64,000 nt of DNA from assembly GCF_000420325.1 (NCBI RefSeq), contig NZ_ATUS01000001.1, positions 686,463 through 750,462 on the forward strand, in the 5' to 3' direction. The DNA comes from Spongiibacter tropicus DSM 19543 (lineage in GTDB: Bacteria > Pseudomonadota > Gammaproteobacteria > Pseudomonadales > Spongiibacteraceae). The notes beneath the pieces were generated by a model that saw only the letters and a program-made list of their open reading frames with translations, made no database searches and was not told the DNA's origin. Positions 36,817 to 57,063 of this stretch are shown in pieces (positions within the stretch are counted from its first letter, which is position 1; every line of letters starts with the position of its first letter). A program made the translations under genes and the position numbers.

Positions 36817-36849
36817 GCGCAGGCCGATAACAACAATAAGGAGTACGCC

Positions 36850-39240: not shown

Positions 39241-39258
39241 CGGCCAAACGATCGCCGC

Positions 39259-40461
39259 TTAACAGAGCTCCAACAGCATCGCCGTTCCCGTGCCAGCAGC
39301 GCCGCTGGCGGCGACAATACCCCGCCGCTGGCCGCGACGCTCAAGCTCATCCAGCAGCGTGCCAGCCATCATGGCGCCGGTCGCCCCCATGGGGTGGCCG
39401 AGGGCAATCACACCGCCGTTAACATTCAGCTTGTCCTCGCTGATACCGAGGTCACGCTGACATTTCACAACGGTGGCGGCAAAAGCCTCATGCAGTTCAA
39501 ACAGGTCGATATCATCGGCCGTTAAACCCTGTTCGCGCATTAATTTTTGCGCGGCGGCACTGCAGCCAGAGATCACCGTCAGCGGGTCATCACAAATACT
39601 GGCAACCGCGCATATACGTGCCCGGGGCTGGTGGCCCAGCCGTTCTCCCAGTGCCTGATTACCCACTAGCACCAGTGCCGCACCGTCCGCCATCGCCGGG
39701 GAGTTCCCCGCTGAGTGAATATGCTGAATTTCACGCAACTCGCTATTTGCCTTGAGCTGGAGGGCGTCAACACCTTTGGCACCTGGCTCAGCAAAAGCCG
39801 GCGGCATTTGTGCCAACGACGCCAGAGTGGTGCTGTCGCGAATGCACTCGTCCCGCTCGATGCGAATGCCTCTTACCGGGTTTTCGACGGGAATAATCGA
39901 GCTAAACCACCCTTCATCGCGGGCGCGGGCCGCCCGCTGCTGGCTGAGCAAGGCAATACAATCCGCCTCTTCGCGGCTAACCCCGTATTGTGACGCAATT
40001 AAATCTGCGCCATTACCCATCATCAGCATCTGACAACGCGCCGCCATTTTCGGGTCGAGAAAAACGCTTGCTTTGTCAGACAGCATCGGCACGCGCGACA
40101 TCATTTCCACGCCACCAGCCAACACCATCCCCGCCTGACCAGCCTGTACTTTCAACGCGGCGAAATTGATCGCGTCCAGTCCCGACGAGCAGAAGCGATT
40201 GATAGTAATACCGGGAATATGTGTCGGCCACCCGGCATACAAGAGAGAGGTTTTAGCGATATTAGCGGCCTGCTCCTCCGCTTGCGTTACGCAGCCGAGA
40301 ATGACATCGTCTACTTGATTTCTGTCGATACCATTTCTATCCACCACAGCGTCGAACAGCACTGCCATCAGACCTTGTGGGAGTAGGTCATAGAGACCAC
40401 CACTCTCCTTGGCACGCCCGCGCGGTGTGCGAATGGCATCGTAAATATAGGCTGAGTTCAT
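39259..40461 (-). CDS. Thiolase-family acetyl-CoA acetyltransferase with Cys-to-Ser at the second active site
   Basis: 400 residues, standard size for degradative thiolases. The nucleophile Cys91 is in [10 protein letters not shown] and the His is in [17 protein letters not shown]. The C-terminal motif, normally CxGGGxG, reads [12 protein letters not shown] (Ser386 replaces the proton-shuttling Cys). Family knowledge says the first Cys carries the acyl group and the second activates or protonates the acetyl carbanion, so activity may be altered toward a different chemistry or slowed. Its start overlaps the stop of the next gene upstream in the operon (TGATG), so it is the last gene of the minus-strand four-gene operon. 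Confidence 0.9.
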
Positions 40462-41693
40462 CAGTTCACCCCAACAATAATGCTGGCGCAGGTTGTTGCA
40501 CTGCCACCGAGATTAAAAGTCGCCATGTTCTCGGCGCCCGCAATTTGATTTTTCCCTGCCTGACCAGTCACCTGCTTATAGCAATCGAGCAACATACGAA
40601 CGCCTGTCGCCCCAACAGGGTGCCCTTGACCAATGAGTCCCCCGCTGGCATTGATGGGAAAGTCACCGTCACGAGCAATACGCCCCTCCTCCACAGCCTT
40701 CCAACTTTCGCCCGGCGCAGTGAGCCCGCAGTGATCGATCACCATGTACTCGGTAATGGAGAAACAGTCGTGCACCTCGAGGCCATCAAGCGCCTTCAGA
40801 TCAGACATACCTGCCCGGCTAAGGGCATCGCGGATAAGTTGATTCACATGGGGGAACAGCAGCGGCTTGCCCTCGCTCAACTGCAGCTTGGTATCTAGCG
40901 CGATGGCGGATGAACGGTGCCCCCAGCCTTTAATGCGTGGAATATCGCTTAACGAGAGGCCGTGAGCGGCGGCGTAATCCTTTGCCGCCGCCTCACTCGC
41001 CAGAAAGACGCAGGCGGCGCCATCGGTAATCTGTCCGCAATCAGATTTTCGAATGCGCCCGTCGATAACAGGGTTGTGGATATCACTGTTGCTGAAAAAG
41101 GCGTCGTCAACACTCCAGCCCCGCGTCTGCGCCAGCGGATTGTCTTTGGCGTTACCGTAATTGATGCGCGAGATCGCCTTGAGATGATCGGTGTTTATGC
41201 CGTGACGCCGCTCATATTCGTCGACGATACGATTAAACATGTGGGGCCAGGGGTATTCGCAGTGCTGAGCCTCGTAACCCCGCCAAGTTGCGGACCCGAG
41301 GTATTCGGCGCCGGTCTTACCCGGCACATTGCGCATCAGCTCCATACCCAGCACACAGGCGATATCATAGTCGCCGCAGCGAATATCTCTGATGGCGCCC
41401 AGCAAAGCCATCGACCCCGAAGCGCAGGCCGCTTCGTGGCGGCTGGTCGGCATGCCATTCAACTCTGGATAGGCCTGGGCGAAAAACCCACCCAGCAGGC
41501 CCTGCCCCGCGAACAGGTCGCCGACAAAGTTGCCGACGTGTCCAACCTGAATCTGCTCGGGTGACAAGCCCGTCGCCGCCAAGGCGTCATCCAGTACCGC
41601 CTTGAATAAGTCAAAACTGTCCAAGTCTTCTCGGGCCCAATTGCGGGCAAAATCGGTTTGGCTGCCGCCAAGCACATATACCGTCATGTTCAT
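40461..41693 (-). CDS. SCP2-type thiolase
   Basis: 410 residues of the SCP-x/SCP2-thiolase (acetyl-CoA acetyltransferase-like, lipid-transfer) family. EAACASGSMALLGAI contains the nucleophile Cys; EVHDCFSITEY is the HDCF motif of the group; NASGGLIGQGHPVGATG and FNLGGSATTCASIIVG follow. The ATG at 41693 has GAGGGAG ahead of it; the frame runs further up to 41870 without similarity. Close relatives act on 3-oxoacyl-CoA side chains, or as retro-aldolases with a DUF35 partner, which is absent here. Confidence 0.9.
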   Translation of the reverse strand: MNMTVYVLGGSQTDFARNWAREDLDSFDLFKAVLDDALAATGLSPEQIQVGHVGNFVGDLFAGQGLLGGFFAQAYPELNGMPTSRHEAACASGSMALLGAIRDIRCGDYDIACVLGMELMRNVPGKTGAEYLGSATWRGYEAQHCEYPWPHMFNRIVDEYERRHGINTDHLKAISRINYGNAKDNPLAQTRGWSVDDAFFSNSDIHNPVIDGRIRKSDCGQITDGAACVFLASEAAAKDYAAAHGLSLSDIPRIKGWGHRSSAIALDTKLQLSEGKPLLFPHVNQLIRDALSRAGMSDLKALDGLEVHDCFSITEYMVIDHCGLTAPGESWKAVEEGRIARDGDFPINASGGLIGQGHPVGATGVRMLLDCYKQVTGQAGKNQIAGAENMATFNLGGSATTCASIIVGVN

Positions 41694-41736
41694 GCTCCCT
41701 CGTATTGTTATGGTAGTCAGGAAAAACCGCGCAAGC

Positions 41737-43383
41737 TCAGCCCGCGATCTGCTCTTGCAAGACGAAACGCTGAACTTTGCCCAGCGCATTTCTCGGCAAT
41801 ACCTCCAGTAACTCCAGACGCTCGGGCAACTTGATACGGGAAACGCCCTTGGCCTGCAGATAACGAACAATGTCGTCCAAGGATGGCGCTAGTTCTTGCG
41901 ACACCGGCACCACGCAGGCACAAATACGCTCTCCCAGCACGCTGTCGGGATAGGCGCAAACGGCCGCCTCTCTCGCACCGGGCAGCCCTTCCAGCAACAC
42001 ATCCAGCTCGGATGGCGACAGCTTCATGCCGCCGCGATTAATGATGTCTTTGCAACGCCCGGCAATGCGATAAAACTGCTGTGCATCCCCGCAGATCTCC
42101 ACCAGATCACCGGTGAGGAAATATCCATCCTCAGTAAAGACCTCGGTATTGTCGCTATGCCAGTAGCCGTCAAAGACGGTGGGACCTTTCACCGCCAGCT
42201 CCCCGGCGATACCCGGCTCGGTGATCTCATCGCCGGTTTCGGGGTTCAGCACCTTTGTCCAGATCGTTTTACTCGCGGCAGAGGGCCACTCCAGCCCGGG
42301 GCTGCCGAAGCGAGGGAACATATAGGCGCGTACACTGGGATCGGGAACATCTTTGGGCTTGGAGAGCAGGTTGATTCCCTCATTCGAGCCGTAGTAATTG
42401 ACGATGCACTTCCCATAGTCGTGCTCAAACTTTTCCATCATCCAGGGCGACAGCGGCGCTGACCCCGAGCCAATAGACCGTAGCGAGCTAAAATCAAACT
42501 GCTGCCACATCGACTCGTCCTTGGCGAGCTGATTGAGAACCGCCGGAGGAATGATGGTGAAGTTCACTCGTTCGATCTGCATCTGTGTCAAAAACACCGC
42601 GGGATCAAAAGGGTGGTGAAGAATCAGGCTGCAGCCCTGTAACACCCACGCGTAGAGAAACGCGCTTATCGATGCCATATTTACCATCGGAAAAGCGTTA
42701 AGTAGCACGTCTCCCGTTTGATAATCACCCGCTTCAATACAGTTACGCGCAACCGTTACCCACATATTGTGTGACCGTGGCACACCCTTCGGCAGCCCGG
42801 TTGTACCGGAAGTCCAGCACAGGGAAAGAATACGGTTGGCATCCGAATAATCTGGCAGGTTTGGCAGTTCCGTCGTCGTCAGCCTCAGCGTCAGCTTATC
42901 GCCAAACAGCGCGACAGCCACATCTGGTGAAAAGCAAGCAGAGCGTCGGCTGCCAAATGCTTCGCCCTTAAAAACGTCCACCGAAATAAAGGCCTTTGCG
43001 CGCGCGGCCTTGGCAAAATGCTCTAGTTCATAATCGCCATACTGAACCGGCACTGGCGAAATAATGGCGCCAATACGGCTAATCGCGAGATAGCAGACGA
43101 CCAGTTCCACGATATTAGGAAGCTGGACGATGACGACGTCATCTTCGCAAACACCAAGTTGCAATAAGTCTTGCGCCAGATTGAGACTGGCCGTTTGTAA
43201 TTCGGCATAGTTAAGGCGATGTGGTACTGATGCCACCAACGCCTCCCGATTGGGCGCATCGGCAACAGCCAACTGCGTCGGCGCCTTCTGCGCATAGTCG
43301 TCCAACAACTGGTGGAGAACCTTGCCTTCCCAAAGGCCACTTGCCTGATAGCGGTCTATCGTTGTTTGCTTGGATGTAATCAT
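41737..43383 (-). CDS. Acyl-CoA synthetase (AMP-forming)
   Basis: 548 residues, adenylate-forming. The P-loop-like motif is WTSGTTGLPKGVPRSHN (about residues 190-206), motif A5 is YYGSNEGIN, the linker is YFLTGDLVEI, and NALGKVQRF near the end carries the catalytic Lys. It activates a carboxylic acid to its CoA thioester with ATP. Second gene of the minus operon (nitronate-monooxygenase-like, ligase, SCP2 thiolase, thiolase), so it probably activates an intermediate degraded by those thiolases. Confidence 0.92.
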   Translation of the reverse strand: MITSKQTTIDRYQASGLWEGKVLHQLLDDYAQKAPTQLAVADAPNREALVASVPHRLNYAELQTASLNLAQDLLQLGVCEDDVVIVQLPNIVELVVCYLAISRIGAIISPVPVQYGDYELEHFAKAARAKAFISVDVFKGEAFGSRRSACFSPDVAVALFGDKLTLRLTTTELPNLPDYSDANRILSLCWTSGTTGLPKGVPRSHNMWVTVARNCIEAGDYQTGDVLLNAFPMVNMASISAFLYAWVLQGCSLILHHPFDPAVFLTQMQIERVNFTIIPPAVLNQLAKDESMWQQFDFSSLRSIGSGSAPLSPWMMEKFEHDYGKCIVNYYGSNEGINLLSKPKDVPDPSVRAYMFPRFGSPGLEWPSAASKTIWTKVLNPETGDEITEPGIAGELAVKGPTVFDGYWHSDNTEVFTEDGYFLTGDLVEICGDAQQFYRIAGRCKDIINRGGMKLSPSELDVLLEGLPGAREAAVCAYPDSVLGERICACVVPVSQELAPSLDDIVRYLQAKGVSRIKLPERLELLEVLPRNALGKVQRFVLQEQIAG

Positions 43384-43434
43384 GGGCTTTCCGTGTCGTT
43401 ATTATGAATTATCGTGTCGCTACGCCGCGGTAAC

Positions 43435-44400
43435 TTAAAGCGCCAGTGCCTCGCGGTACTCGCGCTGCAGTTGCTCAACAAGCTCTGCAATGGATTGCCG
43501 CGCATGGATCGCCCCGACACCCTGGCCCGCCGCCCAGATGTCGCGCCAACGCTTCGCGTCTCCGGCGGCTTTCATAAAATTGATATCCGCAGCCGCGGGC
43601 ATATTGGAAGGATCGTAGCCTCCCTGTATGAGGCTTTGACGCAGCCAGTTGGCTTTCACCCCGGTGATCGCATCGCTGGTGATAATGTCGCTACCCGATG
43701 CCTCCACGACCATTTTCTTGTATGCCTCCTGGGCCCGGCTTTCATGCGTGGGAATAAACCGCGTTCCCATATACACATAATCGGCCCCCATCACTTGTGC
43801 AGCTCGCAGAGACCGTCCCGTCGTGATCGCCCCAGACAGAATGATTTCACCGTCGAAAAATCCGCGAACCTCTTCCACAAAAGCAAAAGGAGACAGTTGC
43901 CCGGTATGACCTCCTGCGCCGGCACAAACCAGCGCCAGACCGTCGACGCCTGAGGCCGCCGCCTTGCGCGCGAAATCCAGAGAAACCACATCTGCATACA
44001 CCTTGCCGCCGTAGCTGTGTACCTGATCGACCGCATCCCGCGGACTCCCCAAGGCGGTAATTACAATCGGCGCCTGGTACTTCACTGCCAGCGCCAAATC
44101 GTCGTAGCAGCGAGGATTCGTGCGATGCATCACCAAGTTCATCGCCCAGGGCGCCGCCTCAGGGCTCTCTGCCAGAGCGGAAGTAATCTCCTGTAACCAA
44201 TGTTCAAGGTCCTCAAGTGTCCGCGCATTGGGCGATGGAAAGGACCCCACAATCCCGGCGCGACACGAGGCGATCACCATTTCAGGACCTGACAGCAGAA
44301 ACATTGGCGCCTGGATAATCGGCAACCGGAGGCGACTTTGGGTAGCGTCGGGGCCCGGCTCAGGGCGGACTCCAGAACCACGAGAAACTTCTTCTGACAT
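43435..44400 (-). CDS. Nitronate monooxygenase-like FMN protein
   Basis: 321 residues, TIM-barrel of the 2-nitropropane dioxygenase family. LPIIQAPMFLLSGPEMVIAS is the N-terminal barrel start; CAGAGGHTG and FFDGEIILSGAITTG, ALQ-like AAQVMGADYVYMGTRF give the FMN phosphate-binding part. In catabolic operons such proteins are often annotated nitronate monooxygenases, although some relatives have other FMN-dependent roles (for example enoyl reductase-like). It is the first gene of the minus operon and is divergent from the carotenoid-oxygenase operon. Confidence 0.87.
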   Translation of the reverse strand: MSEEVSRGSGVRPEPGPDATQSRLRLPIIQAPMFLLSGPEMVIASCRAGIVGSFPSPNARTLEDLEHWLQEITSALAESPEAAPWAMNLVMHRTNPRCYDDLALAVKYQAPIVITALGSPRDAVDQVHSYGGKVYADVVSLDFARKAAASGVDGLALVCAGAGGHTGQLSPFAFVEEVRGFFDGEIILSGAITTGRSLRAAQVMGADYVYMGTRFIPTHESRAQEAYKKMVVEASGSDIITSDAITGVKANWLRQSLIQGGYDPSNMPAAADINFMKAAGDAKRWRDIWAAGQGVGAIHARQSIAELVEQLQREYREALAL

Positions 44401-44713
44401 CGGTTAGCAACTCCACATCGGACGAATATTTACTTTTGTTATTGAACCAATATGCTATATCAACCCAACACATAACGACAACAAGCAGATACAAAAACCC
44501 ATAATAAAACATATAACTTATTGTTTTTTAAATAACTTAACCAAAAATAACTCAATGCCGGAAAGGCACCTGCAAAAAACACTTGCACTATTAGACTAAT
44601 AATTTATAGACTCGACAGCAAGACAAGAACAACCAGCGCGGCATTACATAGCACTGCCATATGCCAAGCACGCGTTAACCGCCAAATAACCGTATAAAAA
44701 TAGGGAGAGTTTT
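44401..44713. promoter_or_regulatory. Divergent promoter region of the two catabolic operons
   Basis: 313 AT-rich bases without a gene, between the minus-strand ligase/thiolase operon and the plus-strand carotenoid-oxygenase operon. It contains ACTTTTGTTATT (44432-44443), an ATTG-AAC-CAAT inverted repeat directly after it, and the 13-base palindrome at 44589-44601. GGGAGAG (44704-44710) is the ribosome site of the oxygenase gene. Confidence 0.6.
44589..44601. promoter_or_regulatory. Candidate HxlR operator, copy 1 (TATTAG-A-CTAATA)
   Basis: A perfect 6-1-6 palindrome. Its core TTAG-N-CTAA recurs at 51258-51266 beside the HxlR gene. HxlR proteins bind short inverted repeats near their targets, so this is a plausible site. 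The link is inference from the shared sequence and position. Confidence 0.5.
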
Positions 44714-46225
44714 ATGACCGCCAATAGCCATAGCAGCTACCCACTGACCGAGCGCTGCCTGGGCAGCGCGCCTCGGCTCGACGACAGCCCTGAATGGATC
44801 TATGACATCGACAACCCCTATTTACATGGGGTGTATGCACCAACAAACCACATTGATGTCAGCGCTACCGCACTGGAAGTAGAGGGTGAAATTCCCAAAG
44901 ATATGGACGGCGCCTATTTGCGTAATGGCCCCAATCCCCGCCAAAAGCCCAAGAACCCCTACCACCCCTTCGATGGTGACGGCTTTGTTCACGGCCTGTA
45001 CTTTCGCGACGGACAAGTCAGTTATCGCAACAGCCAGATTCAGACGGCTGCGCTCTTGCGTGAGCAGGAAGAAGGCCAGGCAGTATGGCCAGGCGTTATG
45101 GGGCCCTTTGACTTTTCACTGCCCGACTCCCCCATAAAAGACACGGCCAATACAGACATCATCTGGCACAACGGGCGGCTAATTGCGCTGTGGTATAACT
45201 CGGGGATCCCCTACACACTTGACCCCGTCACGCTTGAGAACCTCGGCCCTCTCGAGTCGCCGAGTACGCTATCGCGCAAAATGTCAGCGCATTCACGCGT
45301 CGACTGGCAAACCGGGGAAATGTTTTTCTTTGAATTTGGCGACGAGCCACCCTACATGACCTATGGCGTGCTCAATCCCGACGGCACACTGAAACATGAA
45401 AGCCCAATAGATTTGCCCGGACCACGCCTTCCCCACGAAATCAGTTTCACCGAAAACTATGCGGTGCTGCACGACCACCCGCTATTCCACGATATTAATG
45501 TGCTCAAACGGCACAATATGCGGGTCGTACACTTTCACCGTGATATGCCGACACGCTTTGGTTTGATTCCTCGGCTCGGCACGGAAGTACGATGGTTCGA
45601 ATGCGAGCCTTGCTATGTTCTGCACACCTCTAATGCCTGGGAAGATGGTGACTGGGTAGTAATCGATGGCAGCCGTTCGACCAACCCGATGCCTCAGGCC
45701 GACCCCAGCGAAGGCGCGCTGTCGCATATGCTGGCCTATATGCGCCTGGAGGCGAATAACTACCGGTGGCGCCTCAACCTGCGTACCGGCGAAGTGCGCG
45801 AGGGACCCATCTGCGACCTCAACTCAGAATTCAATAAGTCGAACCAGATCTTCCATGGCGTGAAAAGCCGCTACGCCTATCACCAAAAAATACCGCTGCT
45901 TGCCGATGGTGGTCACACACTGCGTTTTACCGGCCTGATCAAATACGACAATGAAACCGGACAACGCCAGGAGTGGGACTACGGCCCAGGCGTTTTCGGC
46001 AGCGAAGCTCCTTTCGTACCGAAGCGCGGCGCTGATCGCAGCAGTGAAGAAGACGACGGCTATGTAACGACGTTTATCACCGACACCAACAACTGGAGCT
46101 CACACTGTCTGGTGTTCGATGCCAAAGACATCACCCAAGGCCCCATTGCCAAAATCAAACTCCCTCACCGACTACCGGCAGGCTTCCACGGCTGGTGGGC
46201 GCGCGGCGAGGACATTTATCGCTGA
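44714..46225 (+). CDS. Carotenoid/stilbene-cleaving dioxygenase (carotenoid oxygenase family)
   Basis: 503 residues, seven-bladed propeller non-heme iron enzyme. GEIPKDMDGAYLRNGPNP is the family N-terminal block; the four iron His are visible in SAHSRVD (about 195), FTENYAVLHDHPLF (about 245), CYVLHTSNAWE (about 304) and AGFHGWWARG near the end. Sequence style (PFDGDGFVHGL, no membrane-binding leader) is nearer to bacterial lignostilbene/isoeugenol dioxygenases and apocarotenoid oxygenases than to plant NCEDs. It splits an alkene C=C bond with O2 to give two aldehydes or ketones. First gene of a three-gene operon with an esterase and a TBDR. Confidence 0.92.
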   Translation: MTANSHSSYPLTERCLGSAPRLDDSPEWIYDIDNPYLHGVYAPTNHIDVSATALEVEGEIPKDMDGAYLRNGPNPRQKPKNPYHPFDGDGFVHGLYFRDGQVSYRNSQIQTAALLREQEEGQAVWPGVMGPFDFSLPDSPIKDTANTDIIWHNGRLIALWYNSGIPYTLDPVTLENLGPLESPSTLSRKMSAHSRVDWQTGEMFFFEFGDEPPYMTYGVLNPDGTLKHESPIDLPGPRLPHEISFTENYAVLHDHPLFHDINVLKRHNMRVVHFHRDMPTRFGLIPRLGTEVRWFECEPCYVLHTSNAWEDGDWVVIDGSRSTNPMPQADPSEGALSHMLAYMRLEANNYRWRLNLRTGEVREGPICDLNSEFNKSNQIFHGVKSRYAYHQKIPLLADGGHTLRFTGLIKYDNETGQRQEWDYGPGVFGSEAPFVPKRGADRSSEEDDGYVTTFITDTNNWSSHCLVFDAKDITQGPIAKIKLPHRLPAGFHGWWARGEDIYR

Positions 46226-46275
46226 ACAACACGCTAGCCATATTCCAATAATAAAACCGTCAAGGCGTAGAAAGC

Positions 46276-47802: not shown

Positions 47803-47860
47803 CCCTTAGTAGAACGTTCTTTTGATCTAGCGATAACAATAAAGCACCGGAGAAAAATTG

Positions 47861-50164
47861 ATGTTTACACAGACTCATCACACGCTTAAAGCCTTGCCCG
47901 CAGCGCTGTTGGCCAGCGCGGTTATCAGCAGCAGTGCAGTAGCCGCGCAGCTTGAAGAGGTATTGGTTACCGCCGAAAAGAAATCGGCCAGTATTCAGGA
48001 TGTGCCTATGTCAGTCGCCGCAATTGCCGGCGACGATGTTGGCATGGGTAAAGTCACCGAGATGAATGATGTCGCTCTGAAGACCCCCGGCATGTCATTT
48101 ACCCAGTTCAACCTCGGGGAACCCCGTGTCTACATTCGCGGCATCGGCAACAGCTCCGATTCAGCGGCCAGCGATTCGGCTGTCGGTATTTTTATCGATG
48201 AAATCTATATCGGCCGGGCGGGTGGCAGTGGCTTCGACCTCTTCGATCTGGAACGCATCGAGATTCTGAAGGGACCGCAGGGTACTCTCTACGGCAAAAA
48301 CACCAACGGTGGCGCCATCAACTTTATTACCAGCCGCCCGGACTACGAGCCGATGAGCAAGCTCAGTTTCACTGCCGGAAATAAGGGCTTGTTTCATGCC
48401 CAAGCACTGGTGACCGGCGGACTGACCGATACCATCGCAGGCAAGTTGAGCGTGGCCAGCAAGCAGCGCGATGGCTTTCAGAAGAACGTCATTCGCCCCT
48501 CAGACGTAACCGTCGATACCAATCTGAGTAACAGCCCGATTATCGGCAACTCCCAGGGAGCGAAAGGCGGCGGCGATGAGCTGGGCGATATTGAGAGCGT
48601 CAATGTGCGCGGACAGCTGCTGTTTGACCTCAGCGATACCACCATGCTGTTACTGAGCGCCGATTATTCCAAAGACGAAACCAACGGCAACTGCAGCCAC
48701 CTGTTGGATTTATCGGCGGGCGTTATGGGCACTGGCGCGCTGTGGCAAGCGGGGGTCGATAGCCTATCGCCCGCCTATCGCAGCAATATTCGTAACTGCG
48801 CCTCTCAGTTTGATACCGGCCAGGAGCGCGAAGTCCAGGGGGTAAGCGCCCGCATCGAGCACGGTTTCGCTTGGGCAGACCTGCTTTCAATTACCGCCTG
48901 GCGCGCCAGCGATGTCTTTCATGTGGATGATTTGACCAGCCTGCCGCTGACTGACATTAACGTCGCGAACTCGGTGCCCGAAAATGTCATCAATGGCGCC
49001 GAAGAAAGCGCCTCACAGTTTTCACAAGAGTTCCGGCTGAGCGGCACTCACAATAATATCGACTGGATTACCGGTATCTTTTACATGCAGGAAGATGTGG
49101 AGCGCGACGAGCAATTCTACACCCGCTACAACGCGGCGCTGAGTGGCGGCCTCGGCCTCGCGCCGGAAGGGAATGTGCTGTTCCTGCAGGACAACACCAC
49201 AACCAGTCTGGCCGTCTATGGGCAGGCGGACTGGCACGTCGACAACTGGACTTTCACCTATGGCCTGCGCTGGAGCATGGATGAAAAAGAGATTACCCAG
49301 GATGCCAAAGACCTGCTCGGTACTGGCATGCCAACCGGTGTTCCGCTGATTTTGCCGGAATTCCCCACGGCCGTTAAAGGAAAAGAGGATTGGGAAGAAA
49401 TAACGCACAAAGCGTCTGTGAACTACCGTTTTGGTGAAGATGCGATGGTATACCTTACCTATTCCGAAGGTTTTAAAAGCGGCGCCTTCCCCTCACAGAC
49501 GAACTTGCCGGAAAACGCCACGAAAACCGTCGATCCCGAATTTGTGGAAAATATCGAAGTTGGACTGAAATCGACCTGGTTCGACAGCCGCCTGCAATTC
49601 AACATTGCCTATTACGATATCGACTACGACAATCTGCAGGTCTTTGAGCTGACTCCAACACTGTTGCTGGTACTCAATAGTGCCCAGGCCGAGTCTTCTG
49701 GCTTCGAGACCAGCATCGCTCTCGCCGCATCGGAACGCCTGACGCTCAGCGCCAACTACAACCATGGGAAAGCTCGCTACGAAGACTTTGTTACGGCGGG
49801 AGGCAGTGATTACAGCGGCAACCAGCTACAGTGGTCACCCGATCGCTCGGGAAGCGTGGACGCCGACTACACCCTGCCCCTGCGTGGCGGTTCAAGGTTG
49901 GACTTCAACGTCAACTATTCCTGGAAAGACGATTACTACACAGCCGCCAGCAACGCTGACGTTACCAAGCAGAAATCGCTATCCAACCTGGGCGTCTCAG
50001 CAGGCTGGACCAGTTCGGATGAGTCACTGTCTGTTCGTCTCTGGGGTAAGAACCTGGGGGACAAAGCGCAGACGCAAAATGTCGTTGTCGACCCAACGGG
50101 TATTACCTCCAACAAATTCGGTGACCCGACGACCTACGGCATTACCGTCAGCAAAACCTTTTAA
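47861..50164 (+). CDS. TonB-dependent receptor (oxygenase cluster)
   Basis: 767 residues from the ATG at 47861, with CGGAG eight bases before it (a TTG lies one codon earlier). Signal peptide to about 29; TonB box region LEEVLVTAEKKSASIQDVPM; plug with RVYIRGIGNSSDSAASDSAV and LERIEILKGPQGTLYGKNT; barrel ending YGITVSKTF with terminal Phe. It belongs to the same TBDR class as the receptor at 36.9 kb. It closes the operon and is followed by a strong terminator; it probably imports the compound cleaved by the oxygenase and esterase. Confidence 0.94.
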   Translation: MFTQTHHTLKALPAALLASAVISSSAVAAQLEEVLVTAEKKSASIQDVPMSVAAIAGDDVGMGKVTEMNDVALKTPGMSFTQFNLGEPRVYIRGIGNSSDSAASDSAVGIFIDEIYIGRAGGSGFDLFDLERIEILKGPQGTLYGKNTNGGAINFITSRPDYEPMSKLSFTAGNKGLFHAQALVTGGLTDTIAGKLSVASKQRDGFQKNVIRPSDVTVDTNLSNSPIIGNSQGAKGGGDELGDIESVNVRGQLLFDLSDTTMLLLSADYSKDETNGNCSHLLDLSAGVMGTGALWQAGVDSLSPAYRSNIRNCASQFDTGQEREVQGVSARIEHGFAWADLLSITAWRASDVFHVDDLTSLPLTDINVANSVPENVINGAEESASQFSQEFRLSGTHNNIDWITGIFYMQEDVERDEQFYTRYNAALSGGLGLAPEGNVLFLQDNTTTSLAVYGQADWHVDNWTFTYGLRWSMDEKEITQDAKDLLGTGMPTGVPLILPEFPTAVKGKEDWEEITHKASVNYRFGEDAMVYLTYSEGFKSGAFPSQTNLPENATKTVDPEFVENIEVGLKSTWFDSRLQFNIAYYDIDYDNLQVFELTPTLLLVLNSAQAESSGFETSIALAASERLTLSANYNHGKARYEDFVTAGGSDYSGNQLQWSPDRSGSVDADYTLPLRGGSRLDFNVNYSWKDDYYTAASNADVTKQKSLSNLGVSAGWTSSDESLSVRLWGKNLGDKAQTQNVVVDPTGITSNKFGDPTTYGITVSKTF

Positions 50165-50186
50165 CATCGCCTGAGACGCACCTTAT

Positions 50187-50211
50187 GCCGCAGCCATTGC
50201 TGCGGCTTTTT
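50187..50211 (+). terminator. Strong rho-independent terminator of the oxygenase operon
   Basis: An 8-bp perfect stem GCCGCAGC, loop CATT, GCTGCGGC, followed by TTTTT, 23 bases after the receptor stop. Confidence 0.9.
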
Positions 50212-50259
50212 CCGAATAGACAGAACGGAGCGGCTGCGCCGACAAGAACACCCTCTGCG

Positions 50260-51177
50260 TTATCGGAAACGAACTTCGTCGGTCCTGGGCACAGTATGGC
50301 AGCCACTGCAAATCACATCGGTCGCCAGCTCATTGCCGCAGGGACGATGAACCAGAGTAAGAGGGTGTTTGACCTTTGGCAGCCACTCGAGCACCCACTG
50401 ACGCAGCGCCATGGTCAGCGGGTAAAGAGCTTTGCCTTTTTCAGTGAGGTGATACTCATAGCGCGGCGGATTACTGCGGTACTCCTCACGGGAGAAGATG
50501 CCAGTATCAACCAGCAACTTAAGCCGGTCGGCGAGGATATTCGTCGCCACACCGAGCTGTTGGCGGAAATCGTCGTAGCGGCTCAAACCAACAAACGCCA
50601 TCGCCATTAACAACAACGTCCAGCGGTCACCGATAATATCAGTGATATGTCCGAGCATTTGATCGCCACTGCCACGGGTTCGACGCTGACTGCCAATTTC
50701 CGTGAGACTGCCAGTTGGCGCCCCCTGCGGCGAGGCATTCACGACCCGCTCGACATCATCGTAGTGCAGAGGCTCGCCACAATGCCGGCACACGGCCAAT
50801 GGCCGCAATTGATGGCCCTCACCAAACGCGTGCCAGAGCTGCGTGGGCAGCTCCGCATCGTTTGCGTCGGCCCATTCGGTTTCCCATTGCCAGATCAGCA
50901 GCGCCCAGGGATAAAGCGCCAAGCCTTTCCCCGTCAGGCGATATTCATAGCGCAGCGGCGATGTCTGATAGGGGTTTTTATAAAGAATGCCATTGGCGAC
51001 CAGAGTCTCCAGGCGGCTGCTCAAGCTGCCGCGCGACGCCCCGGTCCGTCGGCGAAATTCATCGAAGCGATGCTGCCCCAGGAAGGTCTCCCTAAGGATC
51101 AGGATAGTCCAGCGATCCCCGAGAATATTTAATCCTCGGGCAACAGGGTTAGACAGTAATTGTTGGGCAGCTTGCAT
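50260..51177 (-). CDS. Tandem HxlR-family transcriptional regulator
   Basis: 305 residues, nearly three times a usual HxlR protein (about 110-130). Two winged-helix HxlR domains are fused: residues about 10-115 (NILGDRWTILILRETFLG, RRTGASRGSLSSRLETLVANG, YRLTGKGLALYPWALLIWQW) and about 175-275 (DIIGDRWTLLLMAMAFVGLS, LGVATNILADRLKLLVDTG, YHLTEKGKALYPLTMALRQW). Each is followed by a Cys motif: CRHCGEPL after the first, and C-x9-C-x2-C (CGNELATDVICSGC) after the second, suggesting bound zinc or a thiol sensor. A fused dimer would bind a two-half-site operator as a monomer. It is divergent from the aldehyde dehydrogenase operon. Confidence 0.9.
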   Translation of the reverse strand: MQAAQQLLSNPVARGLNILGDRWTILILRETFLGQHRFDEFRRRTGASRGSLSSRLETLVANGILYKNPYQTSPLRYEYRLTGKGLALYPWALLIWQWETEWADANDAELPTQLWHAFGEGHQLRPLAVCRHCGEPLHYDDVERVVNASPQGAPTGSLTEIGSQRRTRGSGDQMLGHITDIIGDRWTLLLMAMAFVGLSRYDDFRQQLGVATNILADRLKLLVDTGIFSREEYRSNPPRYEYHLTEKGKALYPLTMALRQWVLEWLPKVKHPLTLVHRPCGNELATDVICSGCHTVPRTDEVRFR

Positions 51178-51257
51178 GCAGCGAACACTACAACAAAAGT
51201 CGCTAGCGATAAATAAAAAACCGCATTGACTGGCTTGCCGAAGATTACTACAGCCTG

Positions 51258-51276
51258 TTAGTCTAATAACAAAAGT
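51258..51276. promoter_or_regulatory. Candidate HxlR operator, copy 2 (TTAG-T-CTAA plus adjacent box)
   Basis: TTAGTCTAA (51258-51266) lies between the HxlR gene and the aldehyde dehydrogenase operon. Overlapping it, AATAACAAAAGT (51265-51276) is the exact complement of ACTTTTGTTATT at 44432-44443 in the other regulatory region. Both shared elements point to one regulator acting on the two regions. Confidence 0.5.
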
Positions 51277-51345
51277 TACAATAAAACACGGCGCGACGAG
51301 GCGTTGTAAATATCCGGTTCAATACCCCCGATAAGAGAAATAATC

Positions 51346-53022
51346 ATGAACAACTGGTTTACCCAACACCAAGCGACGCTGAATAAAGCCTTGGATGCCT
51401 GTGAAAAGCGCTATGCCTGGACCGCCTATACTGAAAGTCCGAGCAGTAAAATACACGGCAGCGAAAAACCCGCCGCTGGGAAAGCTCGCTTTGAAGCGAT
51501 GCTCGGACAAGCCTACCCGCTGCAACAGACGGGAGAACGCGGCAGAATCGGGGCAGAGATCTCACCGTACACGCGCCAGGCGCTGGGCGTTAGCTATCCA
51601 GACGTCGATATCGACAGCCTGTTCAATGCGATTACCGACGCCCAGCCCGCTTGGCGGGATGCCAACATCGAAACCCGTATGGGCGTTTGTTTGGAAATAT
51701 TGGAGCGCTGCGCCAAGCAACTTTTTGAGAACGCTCATGCCACCATGCATACCGCCGGTCAGAGCTACATCATGGCGTTTGCAGGCAGCGGCGCGAATGC
51801 ACTGGATCGCGGCCTTGAAGCGCTGGCCTACGCGTATAAAGCAATGCGCGATGTGCCCGAACGGGCCGAATGGGAACGGGCTTTTGGCAGCGATGGCGCC
51901 GCCAAACTCAGCAAACAGTACCGGCTTATGCCACGCGGTATAGCGGTCAATATTTGCTGCGCCACCTTCCCGCTCTGGAACGGCTACCCCGCCCTATTCG
52001 CCAGTTTAGCCACGGGTAATCCGGTCGTGTTTAAACCACATCCCAATGCCATTCTTCCAGTAGCGATGGTGGTGAGCGTTTGCCAACAGGTGCTCGCTGA
52101 AGCGGGTTTCGATACGCATCTTGTTACCCTGGTTGCAGATACCCGCGACCAACCCGCCACGATGAAGCTATTGGAACACCCAAAAACCGCCATCATCGAT
52201 TTTACGGGCAGCCCGAAGTTTGGCAGCTGGATAGAACAACACTGCCGCCGCGCCCTGGTGTTCACCGAAACGGCCGGCTGCAACTCGGTCATAATCGAAT
52301 CCACCAATGACTTTGACGGTATGTGCAAGGCCATTGCCCATTCTCTTTGCCAGGCCTCCGCGCAAATGTGTACCAGTGTTCAGAACATTCACATTCCCGC
52401 CGGCGGCATTCGCGTTAACGGCGACCACATCAGCTTCGACACCGTTGTGCAGGGGCTGATTGACGCCGTCGATACGCACCTAGCCAACGCCGCATTCCTT
52501 TGCGGCACCCTGGTCAGCGACGATATTTACCAAACGCTGAAGCGGATGCGCCAACAAGGTGCAGAGCGCGGATATATTCGCCGGGATAGCGGCCCGTATG
52601 CGCATCCGGAGTTCCCGAATGCCCGAACTGCCACTCCCTTAATGATCGAGGTGACCGAGCAGGAACGCGATATGTACCGCAACGAATTTTTCGGTCCGAT
52701 CTCCTTTCTTATCAAAGGCGAGAGTATCCACAGTTGCCTGACGGATGCGACCGGGAACGTAAGAGATTGCGGCGCGATTACCTCACATGTGTATTCAACC
52801 GATCCGGCCTTTTTGGCAGAGGCACAAGACGCCTACAACGAAGCCGGAGCCTCGGTTGCCTGCAACCTTATGGGGATGCCGATCAACTTCGCCGCCGCCT
52901 ACAGTGACTACCACGTGACCGGCCTTAATCCGGCGGGCAATGCTTGCCTGACCGACCTCGCGTTTGTCGCCAGTCGATTCCGCATTGTGCAACGCAAAAT
53001 CATGCAGACGAAAACAGACTGA
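51346..53022 (+). CDS. PaaN-like aldehyde dehydrogenase
   Basis: 558 residues, of the PaaN (phenylacetic acid degradation) subgroup of aldehyde dehydrogenases. AWRDANIETRMGVCLEILER and MPRGIAVNICCATFPLWNGYP are group-typical; FTGSPKFGSW is the NAD loop; catalytic Glu308 is in FTETAGC and the nucleophile Cys342 is in SAQMCTSVQ. There is no hydratase domain. In the PaaN-associated pathways such enzymes oxidise ring-opened aldehydes; no PaaA-E epoxidase genes are here, so its substrate may instead be an aldehyde from the carotenoid-oxygenase cleavage. First gene of a four-gene operon. Confidence 0.88.
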   Translation: MNNWFTQHQATLNKALDACEKRYAWTAYTESPSSKIHGSEKPAAGKARFEAMLGQAYPLQQTGERGRIGAEISPYTRQALGVSYPDVDIDSLFNAITDAQPAWRDANIETRMGVCLEILERCAKQLFENAHATMHTAGQSYIMAFAGSGANALDRGLEALAYAYKAMRDVPERAEWERAFGSDGAAKLSKQYRLMPRGIAVNICCATFPLWNGYPALFASLATGNPVVFKPHPNAILPVAMVVSVCQQVLAEAGFDTHLVTLVADTRDQPATMKLLEHPKTAIIDFTGSPKFGSWIEQHCRRALVFTETAGCNSVIIESTNDFDGMCKAIAHSLCQASAQMCTSVQNIHIPAGGIRVNGDHISFDTVVQGLIDAVDTHLANAAFLCGTLVSDDIYQTLKRMRQQGAERGYIRRDSGPYAHPEFPNARTATPLMIEVTEQERDMYRNEFFGPISFLIKGESIHSCLTDATGNVRDCGAITSHVYSTDPAFLAEAQDAYNEAGASVACNLMGMPINFAAAYSDYHVTGLNPAGNACLTDLAFVASRFRIVQRKIMQTKTD

Positions 53023-53031
53023 GGCAAGGCA

Positions 53032-54279
53032 ATGACAGACGTCTTTATTCTCGGCATTGGCATGACCGGGCTAGGCAAGTTTCCCAATCGCAGCGTCAAA
53101 GACCTGACTCGGGAAGCTGTTGACCTGGCGATAGCCGATGCCGATATCGAGCAACGCGCCATTCAGGCCGCCTGGTTTTCCAATACACGCCAGGGACTGC
53201 TGGAAGGGCAAAATGGTATCCGCGGACAGTGCGCCCTGCGGCCGCTGGGCTTCGAAGGCATCCCCATCGCCAACATCGAAAACGCCTGCGCTTCAGGTTC
53301 TACCGCGATGCTACAAGCGATCGCTCACATCAAAGCGGGCATGTGCGATGTGGCACTGGTCGTCGGTGCAGAGAAAATGTTCTACCCCGATAAACGCGAC
53401 GCCATGTTCAATGCCTTCAAAGGCGGCACCGATATTCATCGTCTGCAGGAATTCCACCAGATTGTGAGTCAGCAAGCTGCGGAGCTGATCCCTGAGCAAT
53501 ACAGAGACATCGATGAGCAGCGCAGTTTTTTTATGGATAGCTACGCCGCCCAGGCCCGCCTGCATATGCAAAAATACGGCACAACTCAGCGGCAGTTTGC
53601 CGCTGCGGCAGCGAAAAACCATTGGCACTCCACCATGAATCCGCTGGCCCAATATCAGGCATCGATGACTGTTGAGCAGGTATTATCTGACCGCGTTATC
53701 GCTTGGCCCTTTACGCTGCCAATGTGCGCACCGATTTCCGATGGCGCCGCCGCGGCCATCGTCTGCTCACGACATGCCCTAAAGCAATTGGGAGGCAGCC
53801 GCCGCGCAATTCGCATCCGCGCGCTATCACTTTGCAGCGGAACCACGCGCTCTGCAGACGACTTCGCCAAGCATATTGGCAGACACGCTGCGTTATTAGC
53901 CTATGAACAAGCTGCCATTGGCTCCGCCGATATTGATGTTGCGGAAGTCCACGATGCCAGCGCCTATGCGGAAATCCAGCAGGTGGAAAACCTGGGCCTT
54001 TGCTCACCCGGTGACGGCGGCCCATTCACAGAGCGAGGCAACACGACACTGGGTGGGGCGATTCCGGTCAACCCGTCGGGAGGCTTGGTATCCAAGGGGC
54101 ATCCCGTCGGTGCCACTGGCATCATGCAACTGCATGAACTGGTGTGCCAGCTTCGTGGCGAGGCTGGGCGACGACAAGTCGAAGGCGCGCGTATTGCCGT
54201 TGCGGAAAACGGCGGGGGCTTCTACGAAACCGAGGAGGCGGCAACGACCGTCACTGTGTTGGAGGCCAGCTCCCGATGA
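53032..54279 (+). CDS. SCP2-type thiolase (second)
   Basis: 415 residues. ENACASGSTAMLQAIAHIKA has the nucleophile Cys; EVHDASAYAEIQQVENLG, NPSGGLVSKGHPVGATG and NGGGFYETEEAATTVTVLE are lipid-transfer-protein/SCP2-thiolase group motifs. HDAS replaces the HDCF of the paralogue at 40.5 kb, so the two are not recent duplicates. Ten bases follow the aldehyde dehydrogenase stop, and its own stop overlaps the ligase start by ATGA. Confidence 0.9.
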   Translation: MTDVFILGIGMTGLGKFPNRSVKDLTREAVDLAIADADIEQRAIQAAWFSNTRQGLLEGQNGIRGQCALRPLGFEGIPIANIENACASGSTAMLQAIAHIKAGMCDVALVVGAEKMFYPDKRDAMFNAFKGGTDIHRLQEFHQIVSQQAAELIPEQYRDIDEQRSFFMDSYAAQARLHMQKYGTTQRQFAAAAAKNHWHSTMNPLAQYQASMTVEQVLSDRVIAWPFTLPMCAPISDGAAAAIVCSRHALKQLGGSRRAIRIRALSLCSGTTRSADDFAKHIGRHAALLAYEQAAIGSADIDVAEVHDASAYAEIQQVENLGLCSPGDGGPFTERGNTTLGGAIPVNPSGGLVSKGHPVGATGIMQLHELVCQLRGEAGRRQVEGARIAVAENGGGFYETEEAATTVTVLEASSR

Positions 54280-55790
54280 TGCTTCCTATAGAGCACCTTT
54301 ACCAAGGCCTTGATCGCAACCCCAACGGCATCGCCGCCATTGATGCAGATGAATGTATTGATTATCGCGAGTTAGTCACGCGCGTTGAAGCATTCGCCCA
54401 GGGCCTCTTGCATCACCTTCCAGCCAACGCCCGAGTCGCACTTTGCGCGCAGAATCATATCGACCACCTGCTTGCCCACTTGGCGCTAGTAGCTGCGAAT
54501 ATGATTTGGATCCCGATCAATCCCAAAAACGGCGCGATACTGAATGCACAGCTCCTGAGTCAGAGTCGCCCTGAGTTAATTCTTGTCGACACGCAAAGCC
54601 TGTCCAGCCTGCCGGACACCGATATTCGCACCGAACTGCTAGATCACCCAACCCAAGGTTGCCGCAAGTGGATACGCGATTATCGCGACCAACCGTTTCT
54701 TCCAACGATTCCGGCTTTCGATGCGCCAATGGGCATCAAATTTACCGGAGGGACCACCGGTCAACCCAAGGGAGTGGTTCAAACCCACGGGAATGTTGTG
54801 GCCGTCATCGACAATATGCAGGCTCAATTTCAGTTCACCGGCCATGACCGCAACCTCGCGGTGGCCCCGCTCACGCACGGCGGCTCACACTATATTTTTC
54901 CGCTGCTGAGTGTCGGCGGCAGTCACCATCTGCTACCACGACCGGACGTTGACGCCATAACCCAGGCCCTCGCAACGTGTACCGTCAGCTTCATGCCGCC
55001 GACACTGATTTATAAGCTGCTTGATCAGGCAGAGCACAAACAGCCCTGTCGATTGCGGCACCTCACCTATAGCGCAGCACCCATGCCGCCGGAAAAAATC
55101 AATGAGGTCATCGCCCGCTTCGGCCCTTGCCTCTCGACACTTTATGGTCAGACTGAGGCACCTATGACCATCACCGCGATGAGCGCCGACGATATGCAAC
55201 AAGCCGCCCTGCAGCACTCGGTAGGTAGAGCCTGCAAGCACAGCGAGCTTGCGATACTGGATCCGGACGGCAGGACTCTGCCGCCAAACAAAACTGGCGA
55301 AGTCGCCGTGCGGGGCGCCATCGTCATGCCCGGCTACCTCGACGCGCCAAGACAGAACGAGGAAGTCTTCAAGAATGGCTGGTTGCTGACTGGCGACCTG
55401 GGCTACGTCAATGACGACGGATACCTTTTCCTTCAGGGACGCAGCAAGGAGGTCATTATCTCCGGCGGCTTCAACGTCTACCCAGCGGAGGTGGAAAATG
55501 CCCTGATGCAGATGCCAAATATTCGAGAATGCGCCGCTTTCGGTGTCGAAGACGATTATTGGGGCGAGCGAGTAGAGGCGGCCATTTGCCTTCGCGGTGA
55601 TGTAGCCGTAGACCCGGACCTGCTGAAGAGAGAATTAAAAGCATTGCTTGGTGATGTCAAAACACCCAAAAGCATCCACGTTTTGAAAAACTTGCCGCGC
55701 AACCCGGTTGGCAAAGTCGTGCGCAGAGATGTTAAAGCCCTGTGTCTCGCCAACTCACAGCGGCCTAGCGAAGAGAACCCCTCACAATGA
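54276..55790 (+). CDS. Acyl-CoA synthetase (AMP-forming), second
   Basis: 504 residues from an ATG overlapping the thiolase stop. Core motifs: GIKFTGGTTGQPKGVVQTHGN, STLYGQTEAPMTITAM, the A8 region WLLTGDLGYVNDDGYLFLQG then KEVIISGGFNVYPAEVE, and NPVGKVVRRDV with the catalytic Lys. The GGFN-xYPxEVE hinge is typical of aryl- and medium-chain acyl-CoA ligases. It likely activates the acid made by the aldehyde dehydrogenase. Four-base overlap with the thioesterase gene. Confidence 0.93.
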   Translation: MMLPIEHLYQGLDRNPNGIAAIDADECIDYRELVTRVEAFAQGLLHHLPANARVALCAQNHIDHLLAHLALVAANMIWIPINPKNGAILNAQLLSQSRPELILVDTQSLSSLPDTDIRTELLDHPTQGCRKWIRDYRDQPFLPTIPAFDAPMGIKFTGGTTGQPKGVVQTHGNVVAVIDNMQAQFQFTGHDRNLAVAPLTHGGSHYIFPLLSVGGSHHLLPRPDVDAITQALATCTVSFMPPTLIYKLLDQAEHKQPCRLRHLTYSAAPMPPEKINEVIARFGPCLSTLYGQTEAPMTITAMSADDMQQAALQHSVGRACKHSELAILDPDGRTLPPNKTGEVAVRGAIVMPGYLDAPRQNEEVFKNGWLLTGDLGYVNDDGYLFLQGRSKEVIISGGFNVYPAEVENALMQMPNIRECAAFGVEDDYWGERVEAAICLRGDVAVDPDLLKRELKALLGDVKTPKSIHVLKNLPRNPVGKVVRRDVKALCLANSQRPSEENPSQ

Positions 55791-56227
55791 ACCAGTGGAG
55801 TAATGACAAAGCACTGAGCGGCATGGAGCGCGTAAAGCGCTTTGAAATGCAAACTGAACGCAGTGGCATGGCCGCCAATCTCGGCTATGAGATCATCGCG
55901 ATCAGCGATGGCGAAGTCCGGTATCGCTACACGCCAAAGGACCGTCATCAGAATCTGATTGGCTCCCTGCATGGCGGCATACTCGCCTCACTACTAGACA
56001 CCGCGATGGGCGCCGCCGTGATGACCAAACTGTCGGCTGGTGAATTCCATACCATGACCGACCTCTCGATCAAATTCATTGGCGCAGTCAGGGACACGGA
56101 CGACGAACTGACCATAGAGGCGCGCATTGACCATGCCGGTAAGCGGATGTTGGCTGCCGAAGGCACCATCAAAAACCAGCGCGGGCAACTTATTGCCCGC
56201 GCTATCGGCAGCGCGATCCGGCTTTAG
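55787..56227 (+). CDS. PaaI-type hotdog-fold thioesterase
   Basis: 146 residues. SLHGGILASLLDTAMGAAV is the hotdog helix with the HGG-x-x-A-x-x-D catalytic pattern of the PaaI/4HBT group, and TMTDLSIKFIGAVR, GTIKNQRGQLIARAIGS complete the fold. It would release free acid from an aromatic or aliphatic acyl-CoA, either as a salvage step or to prevent CoA sequestration. Last gene of the aldehyde dehydrogenase operon. Confidence 0.9.
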   Translation: MNQWSNDKALSGMERVKRFEMQTERSGMAANLGYEIIAISDGEVRYRYTPKDRHQNLIGSLHGGILASLLDTAMGAAVMTKLSAGEFHTMTDLSIKFIGAVRDTDDELTIEARIDHAGKRMLAAEGTIKNQRGQLIARAIGSAIRL

Positions 56228-56790: not shown

Positions 56791-57020
56791 CCTTAGTCTC
56801 CAAGATAATGGGAATTACCCAAAGCACCTTAGTGTCCGACGTCGCCGACAACCGGTCAATTCTTATGCGTCACAATTCGACAGTCGGCAAGCAACAATCA
56901 TGACTTGGGAACAGCAACCGATTACAGGGGCTTGCCAATATGATTGCGGCCCGTTCGCCAGAAATATCCGTGCGGGTCATACATCAGGATGGACGTAAGG
57001 AGAGAGAAGTATTCAGGCAT

Positions 57021-57057: not shown

Positions 57058-57063
57058 AAATAG

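Follow-up and report, generated by a model that had tools for sequence, protein, structure and literature searches.

Gene content of the block

We analysed a 64,000-nucleotide stretch of DNA from Spongiibacter tropicus DSM 19543 (the window; C1:686463-750462 in a 3.95-Mb genome), which carries at positions 39259-56227 a block of about 17 kb around cco, the gene of a carotenoid-cleavage-type oxygenase. The open reading frame (ORF) list, Pfam and NCBIfam resolve the block into twelve genes in three operons with a tandem HxlR regulator (Table 1). The minus operon is transcribed in the order nmo, ligA, scp2a, thlA. A plus operon comprises cco, the esterase gene tan and the receptor gene tbdr, and a second plus operon, hereafter operon 2, comprises paaN, scp2b, ligB and a thioesterase gene. 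All of these genes, and the single regulator between the operons, had been placed here by the original prediction, which was made from the DNA letters alone. The genome has one RPE65-family match. The start of scp2a was set near 41690 (the listed ORF, 40461-41870, overlaps ligA, and homologues have about 410 amino acids). The cofactor of nmo is presumably FMN. In 4-kb steps, the G+C content of the block is 0.55-0.57, slightly under most of the window.

Table 1. Features of the block (positions as in the window).
Feature	Position	Strand	Assignment and basis
thlA	39259-40461	-	FadA-type thiolase (Pfam/NCBIfam); CxG-loop Cys replaced by Ser (ASGAAG); NEAF replaced by HEAF
scp2a	40461-41690	-	SCP2-type thiolase with canonical motifs (Pfam); PRK06289 above cut-off
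ligA	41737-43383	-	AMP-forming acyl/aryl-CoA ligase (Pfam/NCBIfam); closest PDB entries salicylate- and dihydroxybenzoate-AMP ligases
nmo	43435-44400	-	FabK/nitronate monooxygenase-family flavoenzyme (Pfam/NCBIfam)
palindrome 1, TATTAGACTAATA	44589-44601	none	candidate HxlR operator (6+1+6), located between nmo and cco
cco	44714-46225	+	carotenoid-cleavage-type Fe(II) oxygenase, RPE65 family (Pfam PF03055, 406 bits)
tan	46276-47802	+	exported tannase/feruloyl esterase/MHETase-family esterase (PF07519, 334 bits); signal peptide judged by eye
tbdr	47858-50164	+	TonB-dependent outer-membrane receptor (Pfam/NCBIfam)
hxlr	50260-51177	-	single protein with two HxlR winged-helix domains (Pfam, two stretches); divergent to paaN
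palindrome 2, TGTTAGTCTAATA	51256-51268	none	second copy, one mismatch, between hxlr and paaN
paaN	51346-53022	+	PaaN-type aldehyde dehydrogenase (TIGR02288, 606 bits; cut-off 578.75)
scp2b	53032-54279	+	SCP2-type thiolase-fold enzyme; HDCF loop reads HDAS; Cys86 and His357 retained
ligB	54270-55790	+	AMP-forming acyl-CoA ligase (Pfam); start set near 54270
thioesterase	55787-56227	+	4HBT family (Pfam)

The block is inherited as one unit

The closest relative of the oxygenase belongs to Spongiibacter marinus DSM 17750 (84% identity; we took genome label G011 as this strain). When the window was compared by blastn with the S. marinus cluster, the combined matches spanned 39256-56226 with short gaps, ending at the first and the last gene of the block. 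The S. marinus stretches used for comparison (L014, L137 and L138) reach about 17 kb past the left edge and about 14 kb past the right. Beyond the block they gave a single blastn match, 30199-30684 at 65%, and none of fourteen flanking window proteins matched them, save two receptors, whose match was to the receptor of the block itself. The block therefore has different neighbours in the two species, and its edges are sharp. Because the similarity to S. marinus stops at both edges and the flanks are unrelated, we conclude that the three operons are inherited together. Within the genus, only 2 of 18 genomes, the window's own included, have an oxygenase of at least 84% identity; the rest have more distant relatives or none.

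Recurrence of the gene set in other genomes

A scan of GTDB genomes yielded 70 loci encoding a relative of the oxygenase, many of them titled Halieaceae, Haliea, Halioglobus or Luminiphilus. Partner genes were counted with identity thresholds and our own gene calling, so the counts are slightly low: scp2a accompanies the oxygenase in 47 loci, thlA in 39, ligA in 25, nmo and paaN in 24 each, a relative of the HxlR regulator in 22 and the receptor in 15. At least one minus-operon gene is present in 49 loci and all four in 21, 16 of which also have paaN; the tblastn map adds a 22nd locus (L041) holding all four. In the subset of 39 loci that include 10 kb of flank on either side, the corresponding numbers are 31 and 17. 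The order thlA-scp2a-ligA-nmo, on the strand opposite the oxygenase, is kept in 19 of the 21 loci with all four genes and rearranged in L052 and L053. Such conservation of order and divergence, together with the sharp block edges, is more than chance.

Operon 2 occurs with the oxygenase in five of the 70 loci (L014, L015, L043, L052 and L053), whose hosts are S. marinus, an uncultured Microbulbifer, Parahaliea mediterranea, Pseudomaricurvus alkylphenolicus and Lacimicrobium alkaliphilum. The whole twelve-gene set recurs in Microbulbifer, Parahaliea and Pseudomaricurvus, and the set in Lacimicrobium lacks the esterase, the receptor and the regulator. The esterase is found in four of the 70 loci, adjoining the receptor in two and past thlA in two. 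Across 293 genomes of the order, scp2b has matches in 29 (at least 73% identity in four, at most 52% in the other 25) and the oxygenase in 40 (at least 55% in 20, 42-45% in the other 20). A comparison of gene order across genomes had been set beforehand as a possible refutation of the proposed link between the operons. The operons do co-occur, so that this comparison left the link unrefuted, although operon 2 joins the oxygenase in the five loci only.

Some relatives of the oxygenase stand apart from such genes. Four loci from Pseudoteredinibacter and a metagenome-assembled genome of the Cellvibrionaceae (L057, L054, L055 and L080) encode oxygenases at 58-59% without partner genes, and the gene content of these loci suggests that the oxygenase can stand alone. 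In L057 and L054 its neighbour, judged by eye, is an ABC ATPase, and a TonB receptor lies about 7 kb away.

More distant clusters resemble the block. Eight stretches (L084-L091) with oxygenases of the same family at 41-44% have an scp2a-like gene and an HxlR-like gene of similar length in all eight, a receptor in all eight and a thlA-like gene in six; ligA-, nmo-, paaN- and lipocalin-like genes occur in three and a DUF1295-type gene in five (Pfam was run on one lipocalin-like and one DUF1295-type member). Two further stretches (L092 and L093), with oxygenases at 28%, are without the partner gene families seen in L084-L091.

A palindrome shared by the divergent promoters

The 13-bp palindrome TATTAGnCTAATA occurs exactly at 44589, between nmo and cco, and with one mismatch at 51256, between hxlr and paaN. 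A search of the 64 kb with TATTAGWCTAAYA, allowing at most one mismatch, gave no further site (0.02 matches expected). The core TTAGnCTAA occurs five times in 1.44 Mb (79 sequences), and four of the five lie within promoters of these two kinds. Ahead of paaN, L014 and L015 retain the site with one mismatch and L052 with two. We regard TATTAGnCTAATA as a candidate HxlR operator in both divergent promoters, and from the sites it is likely that one repressor governs all three operons. The sharp-edged block, the joint recurrence and the common candidate operator lend support to the earlier proposal that the three operons serve one substrate.

The oxygenase

The four iron-binding histidines of cco (His193, His241, His304 and His492) are invariant in all 31 oxygenases aligned, and the family match together with these residues places cco in the carotenoid cleavage oxygenase superfamily (PF03055). 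In a phmmer search of the PDB, Osmanthus CCD1 scored highest (261 bits), followed by VP14 (193), the Pseudomonas brassicacearum lignostilbene dioxygenase (181), NOV1 and LsdA (about 164-166) and Synechocystis ACO (157). The best NCBIfam model was the 8'-apo-carotenoid 13,14-cleaving dioxygenase, at 253 bits and below its cut-off of 675; the lignostilbene dioxygenase models likewise stayed below their cut-offs (226 of 800 and 205 of 650 bits). The AlphaFold model of cco has a pLDDT of 88.5.

Two substrate-binding positions set cco apart from the lignostilbene dioxygenases. In the lignostilbene dioxygenase LSD4, Tyr-101 and Lys-134 hydrogen-bond the 4-hydroxyl of the substrate, according to the accessible part of the source (PMC8191317). 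Carried to cco through an alignment with 5v2d, counted by hand, these positions are Val128 (Val in 29 of 31 sequences, Ile or Leu in two) and Trp160 (31 of 31). The tyrosine in the RYVQT motif of cco is distinct from the tyrosine of LSD4, and the aligned plant CCD1 has the RYVQT tyrosine too. With the phenol-binding pair replaced, we reject an identity of cco as a lignostilbene dioxygenase, and stilbenoids, named as the first candidate substrates by the original prediction, find no support. Our likeliest guess from sequence is that cco cleaves a C=C bond in a molecule of the carotenoid or apocarotenoid type.

Two of the three thiolase-fold enzymes lack a catalytic cysteine

The original prediction had marked one thiolase as a variant, and the alignments extend this to two. 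In scp2a, the classical SCP2-type motifs (the Cys of CxS, the Cys of HDCF and the His of GHP) are each present in 54 of 54 sequences. In scp2b, the HDCF Cys is Ala in six of six sequences, while the CxS Cys and the GHP His are retained, so scp2b is not a classical SCP2 thiolase. thlA aligns best with Mycobacterium tuberculosis FadA (4b3h) and has Ser in the column of the CxG Cys, which sets it outside the classical FadA-type thiolases. This column holds Ser, Ala or Thr in 40 of 43 homologues; all 37 main-cluster rows are without Cys, and the three homologues that keep it are all from paralogous clusters (L084-L086). The CxG Cys is present in all 12 other thiolase genes that thlA finds as query in the window's genome. 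By alignment, then, two of the three thiolase-fold enzymes are without the second catalytic cysteine, which is newly noted here and suggests that they catalyse transfer, hydrolysis or a cleavage of the aldol type. The available text of PMC6392133 describes the SCP2-type relative PhlC as an acyl transferase acting via Cys88.

In a comparison of the HDCF loop among other SCP2-type genes of the window's genome, which left out three further genes, L132 shows the same loss of Cys as scp2b and L133 keeps it. A second scp2b-like gene of this genome (L112, 8902-10137; HDAS, as seen in L132) lies beside a ligase-like gene. Judging from the L112/L132 gene, SCP2-type enzymes without the second Cys may form a wider subfamily.

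The remaining enzymes keep their family motifs. paaN exceeds the TIGR02288 cut-off, and all 28 sequences in its alignment have the aldehyde dehydrogenase residues, Cys in QMCT and Glu in TET(A/S)G; the GAGGHTG motif of nmo is likewise present in 28 of 28. The GCSNGG, Asp and GHC motifs (Ser/Asp/His) of tan are all present in the five aligned sequences, the window's included, in keeping with its PF07519 membership.

In one further genome (G265), an 8-kb contig (C135; L104) has paaN and scp2b followed by a family III CoA-transferase gene, with hxlr, nmo and ligA beyond; this 8-kb contig has no ligB, thioesterase or oxygenase gene. A CoA-transferase in the place of ligB and the thioesterase agrees with a step that moves CoA from one acid to another: one such enzyme could replace both, loading the incoming acid and unloading the product acid.

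Beta-oxidation genes in related clusters

Pfam was run on 49 ORFs of the window, picked from the ORF list, and matched no acyl-CoA dehydrogenase or enoyl-CoA hydratase family among them. Within these 49 ORFs the predicted absence of such genes holds, and on that basis we reject a plain beta-oxidation operon. By gene family, however, this absence is misleading, for related clusters carry a short-chain dehydrogenase/reductase (SDR) resembling hydroxyacyl-CoA dehydrogenases and a DUF1295 protein. Among the 70 oxygenase loci, a DUF1295-type gene occurs in 13 and an SDR gene in 11, mostly between nmo and cco in the gene-order maps shown (Pfam was run on one of each). The closest PDB entries of the added SDR are the (3R)-hydroxyacyl-CoA dehydrogenase of MFE-2 and 17-beta-HSD type 4, and it had no NCBIfam match over cut-off among the matches listed. 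The DUF1295 proteins match the steroid 5-alpha-reductase family too. The earlier statement that the route is not plain beta-oxidation therefore stands for the 49 window ORFs scanned but not for the relatives' clusters, which add genes of the beta-oxidation type. Since the same cluster in these relatives also encodes a DUF1295 protein and a dehydrogenase resembling MFE-2, the route is likely a modified beta-oxidation, its absent steps probably encoded partly in the relatives' clusters and partly elsewhere in the genome.

A proposed pathway and its substrate

We tentatively favour, without calling it probable, the reading that the block is a self-contained catabolic cassette, inherited as a whole, whose substrate is an unsaturated ester of external origin; an apocarotenoid or another isoprenoid polyene would be the likeliest such compound. 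From the gene families we infer the following order of reactions. The TonB-dependent receptor would import the compound, and the exported tannase-family esterase would hydrolyse its ester. The Fe(II) oxygenase would then cut a C=C bond with O2, the PaaN-type aldehyde dehydrogenase would oxidise the resulting aldehyde or aldehydes, and ligA and ligB would activate the acids with CoA. The FabK/NMO-family flavoenzyme may handle a conjugated or alpha,beta-unsaturated acyl-CoA, a stage at which relatives would add the DUF1295 protein and the MFE-2-like 3-hydroxyacyl-CoA dehydrogenase. scp2a would cleave a C-C bond, the modified enzymes thlA and scp2b would catalyse an acyl transfer, a retro-Claisen hydrolysis or a cleavage of the aldol type, and the thioesterase would free the last acid. 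The tandem HxlR protein would repress both divergent promoters via TATTAGnCTAATA, and the substrate or aldehyde would relieve the repression. In its full form, the proposal would have marine Gammaproteobacteria (Spongiibacteraceae, Halieaceae, Microbulbifer and others) consuming external carotenoid-derived polyenes by C=C cleavage and CoA-dependent dismantling, with two Cys-lacking thiolase-fold enzymes that transfer groups or cleave C-C bonds without thiolysis and a single tandem HxlR protein repressing the whole; taken together, all of this is rather unlikely to hold.

Further families were sought in four genomes that carry the set wholly or in part: G000, G011 and G035 (oxygenase at least 80%), and G265 (the partial set L104, with a 44% oxygenase elsewhere). 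None of the four had a match to phytoene/squalene synthase (PF00494). The substrate is therefore probably external, and endogenous carotenoid or retinal turnover is unlikely. The intradiol (PF00775) and homogentisate (PF04209) dioxygenase families were also without a match in all four. The relatives of the oxygenase, the absence of the LSD residues, the SCP2/MFE-2 chemistry, these three negatives and, for G035, the lack of PF02900 and PF05138 matches together put an isoprenoid polyene ahead by sequence comparison, but not far ahead. Abscisic acid catabolism was considered as well, and a literature search gave nothing relevant.

Several observations weigh against this reading. On regulation, the palindrome before cco is exact in the window only, and L014 and L015 have only sites with three mismatches there; three regions of L043 were scanned and held no palindrome site within four mismatches. 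The motif was found by looking, and at least 12 bases common to both promoters arose in shuffles with P = 0.014. A promoter scan found, by its own rule, a consensus sigma-70 site in neither divergent region. On recurrence, 15 of the 70 loci have none of the scored partner genes (8 of the 15 are on loci shorter than 15 kb). On the oxygenase, Foldseek cannot separate carotenoid from stilbene enzymes: TM scores by query length are 0.82 for CCD1 and 0.79-0.82 for the listed lignostilbene and NOV1 entries. Near related oxygenases, L074 and L081 have a TRAP transporter (Pfam was run on the L081 binding protein alone), which suits a small soluble acid better than a carotenoid. Three last points concern aromatic compounds. 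Tannase-family esterases of solved structure act on aromatic acyl esters; ligA has its closest PDB relatives among enzymes that adenylate aryl acids; and the window's genome has genes of the LigB family (two), the PaaA/PaaC family (two) and the catechol 2,3-dioxygenase family (one over the cut-off). LigB-family genes are also present in G011 and G265.

These three points would fit the same cassette degrading an aromatic alkene ester (a phenylpropanoid, vinyl phenol, stilbenoid or aryl polyene), which we consider possible, if on balance unlikely. The oxygenase would yield an aryl aldehyde, and the PaaN aldehyde dehydrogenase, a ligase, an SCP2 enzyme and the thioesterase would turn an aryl beta-keto acid into a benzoate, in the manner of the hydroxyphenyl-beta-ketopropionate routes. 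The set of aldehyde dehydrogenase, ligase, thiolase and thioesterase does resemble the CoA-dependent route from aryl beta-keto acids to benzoates, so far as the accessible text of PMC11837543 and PMC9618137 describes it. The Tyr/Lys pair for phenolic stilbenes is absent from cco, however, and G035, which has an 80% oxygenase and a 73% scp2b, has no match to PF00775, PF02900, PF05138 or PF04209; its catechol 2,3-dioxygenase-family matches are weak (at most 50.9 bits, compared with 320). With none of those ring-cleavage families, a benzoate would be hard to mineralise in G035, other families being possible.

NMO-family and SCP2-type enzymes are found in steroid catabolism. A further reading, quite improbable in our view, is that the oxygenase cuts the side chain of a steroid-like compound or cyclic terpenoid, the cassette acting jointly with the operon to its left (30988-39240). 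That operon has FMO, 3beta-HSD-like, SDR and SBF (bile-acid-symporter-like) genes, and the steroid 5-alpha-reductase match of the relatives' DUF1295 proteins points the same way. The S. marinus homology nevertheless ends at 39256, and the left operon is unmatched in the approximately 17 kb of flank examined on that side.

That the operons are independent and adjacent by chance is very unlikely given the block edges, the recurrence in further genera and the common palindrome, even though operon 2 accompanies the oxygenase in so few loci and G265:C135 has paaN and scp2b with hxlr, nmo and ligA without an oxygenase on its 8 kb. Least likely of all is a biosynthetic cluster whose modified thiolases condense or transfer acyl groups without cleavage, as the loss of the second Cys and the acyl transferase PhlC (PMC6392133, available text) might suggest, for the TonB receptor, exported esterase, O2-dependent cleavage, aldehyde dehydrogenase, ligases and thioesterase indicate uptake and breakdown, and none of the twelve genes matched a polyketide synthase or exporter family at the Pfam threshold used.

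Comparison with known systems

The block combines known families in a new way but does not amount to a system of a new kind. No publication on this gene set was found among the papers listed, judged from titles and abstract openings and with most subscription journals outside the coverage. The lignostilbene dioxygenase pathways of Sphingobium and Novosphingobium (LSD4) likewise use an oxygenase of the carotenoid-cleavage fold to cut a C=C bond into two carbonyls, but the cassette is without the Tyr/Lys pair and its single block unites CoA ligases, three thiolase-fold enzymes, a flavoenzyme and a receptor with a tandem HxlR regulator. Plant CCD1 (Osmanthus) and the bacterial apocarotenoid-cleaving dioxygenases are the nearest solved structure and NCBIfam model by sequence, and the four His align; cco, however, has 32% identity to CCD1 in the Foldseek alignment, sits in a catabolic cluster and falls below the apocarotenoid cut-off. 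Peroxisomal MFE-2 and SCPx oxidise methyl-branched isoprenoid chains. The SCP2-type thiolase and, in 11 of the 70 loci, the MFE-2-like SDR recall this pair, but here they are separate bacterial proteins, with no acyl-CoA oxidase or dehydrogenase family in the 49 ORFs and an alkene-cleaving oxygenase instead. With the phenylacetate pathway the cassette shares the PaaN-type aldehyde dehydrogenase adjoining a thiolase-type gene; PaaA/PaaC (PF05138), though, are present in one of the four genomes, the window's own, and not beside the cassette, which therefore does not belong to that pathway. VceA/VceB and HpeE/HpeF, which convert aryl beta-keto acids to benzoates, are also CoA-dependent and release a shortened acid, whereas the cassette uses thiolase-fold enzymes; this likeness is one of description, not of sequence, and extends as far as the available parts of PMC11837543 and PMC9618137.

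According to PMC12542645 (accessible part, citing Arakawa 2017), products of carotenoid degradation form a major class within marine dissolved organic carbon, and how they resist microbes is not known. If the cassette handles such polyenes, its genes and candidate operator offer a means of finding out which organisms consume them. With an aromatic substrate, too, the block would amount to a defined pathway for alkene cleavage that is portable, and to two altered thiolases whose chemistry can be tested.

Neighbouring genes

Left of the block, 30988-39240 encodes an AraC regulator, an FMO-like monooxygenase, an SBF protein, a 3beta-HSD-like epimerase, an SDR, TauE and a TonB receptor; this is perhaps another terpenoid or steroid operon, and the S. 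marinus flanks examined contain nothing that matches it. Farther left are genes for a heme oxygenase, DUF6607, a sigma-70-family factor, FecR and a TonB receptor (21574-29882; probably heme/iron uptake), an Mrp-type Na+/H+ antiporter operon (13878-21151) and a cytochrome P450 gene (9732-11114), 28 kb from the block. On the right, two ORFs without a Pfam match (56269-58330) separate the block from a copper-resistance operon at 58935-62001 (DUF411, multicopper oxidase, CopB). A tRNA-Arg gene (acg; 57064-57140), about 840 bases past the right block edge, is a possible integration site.

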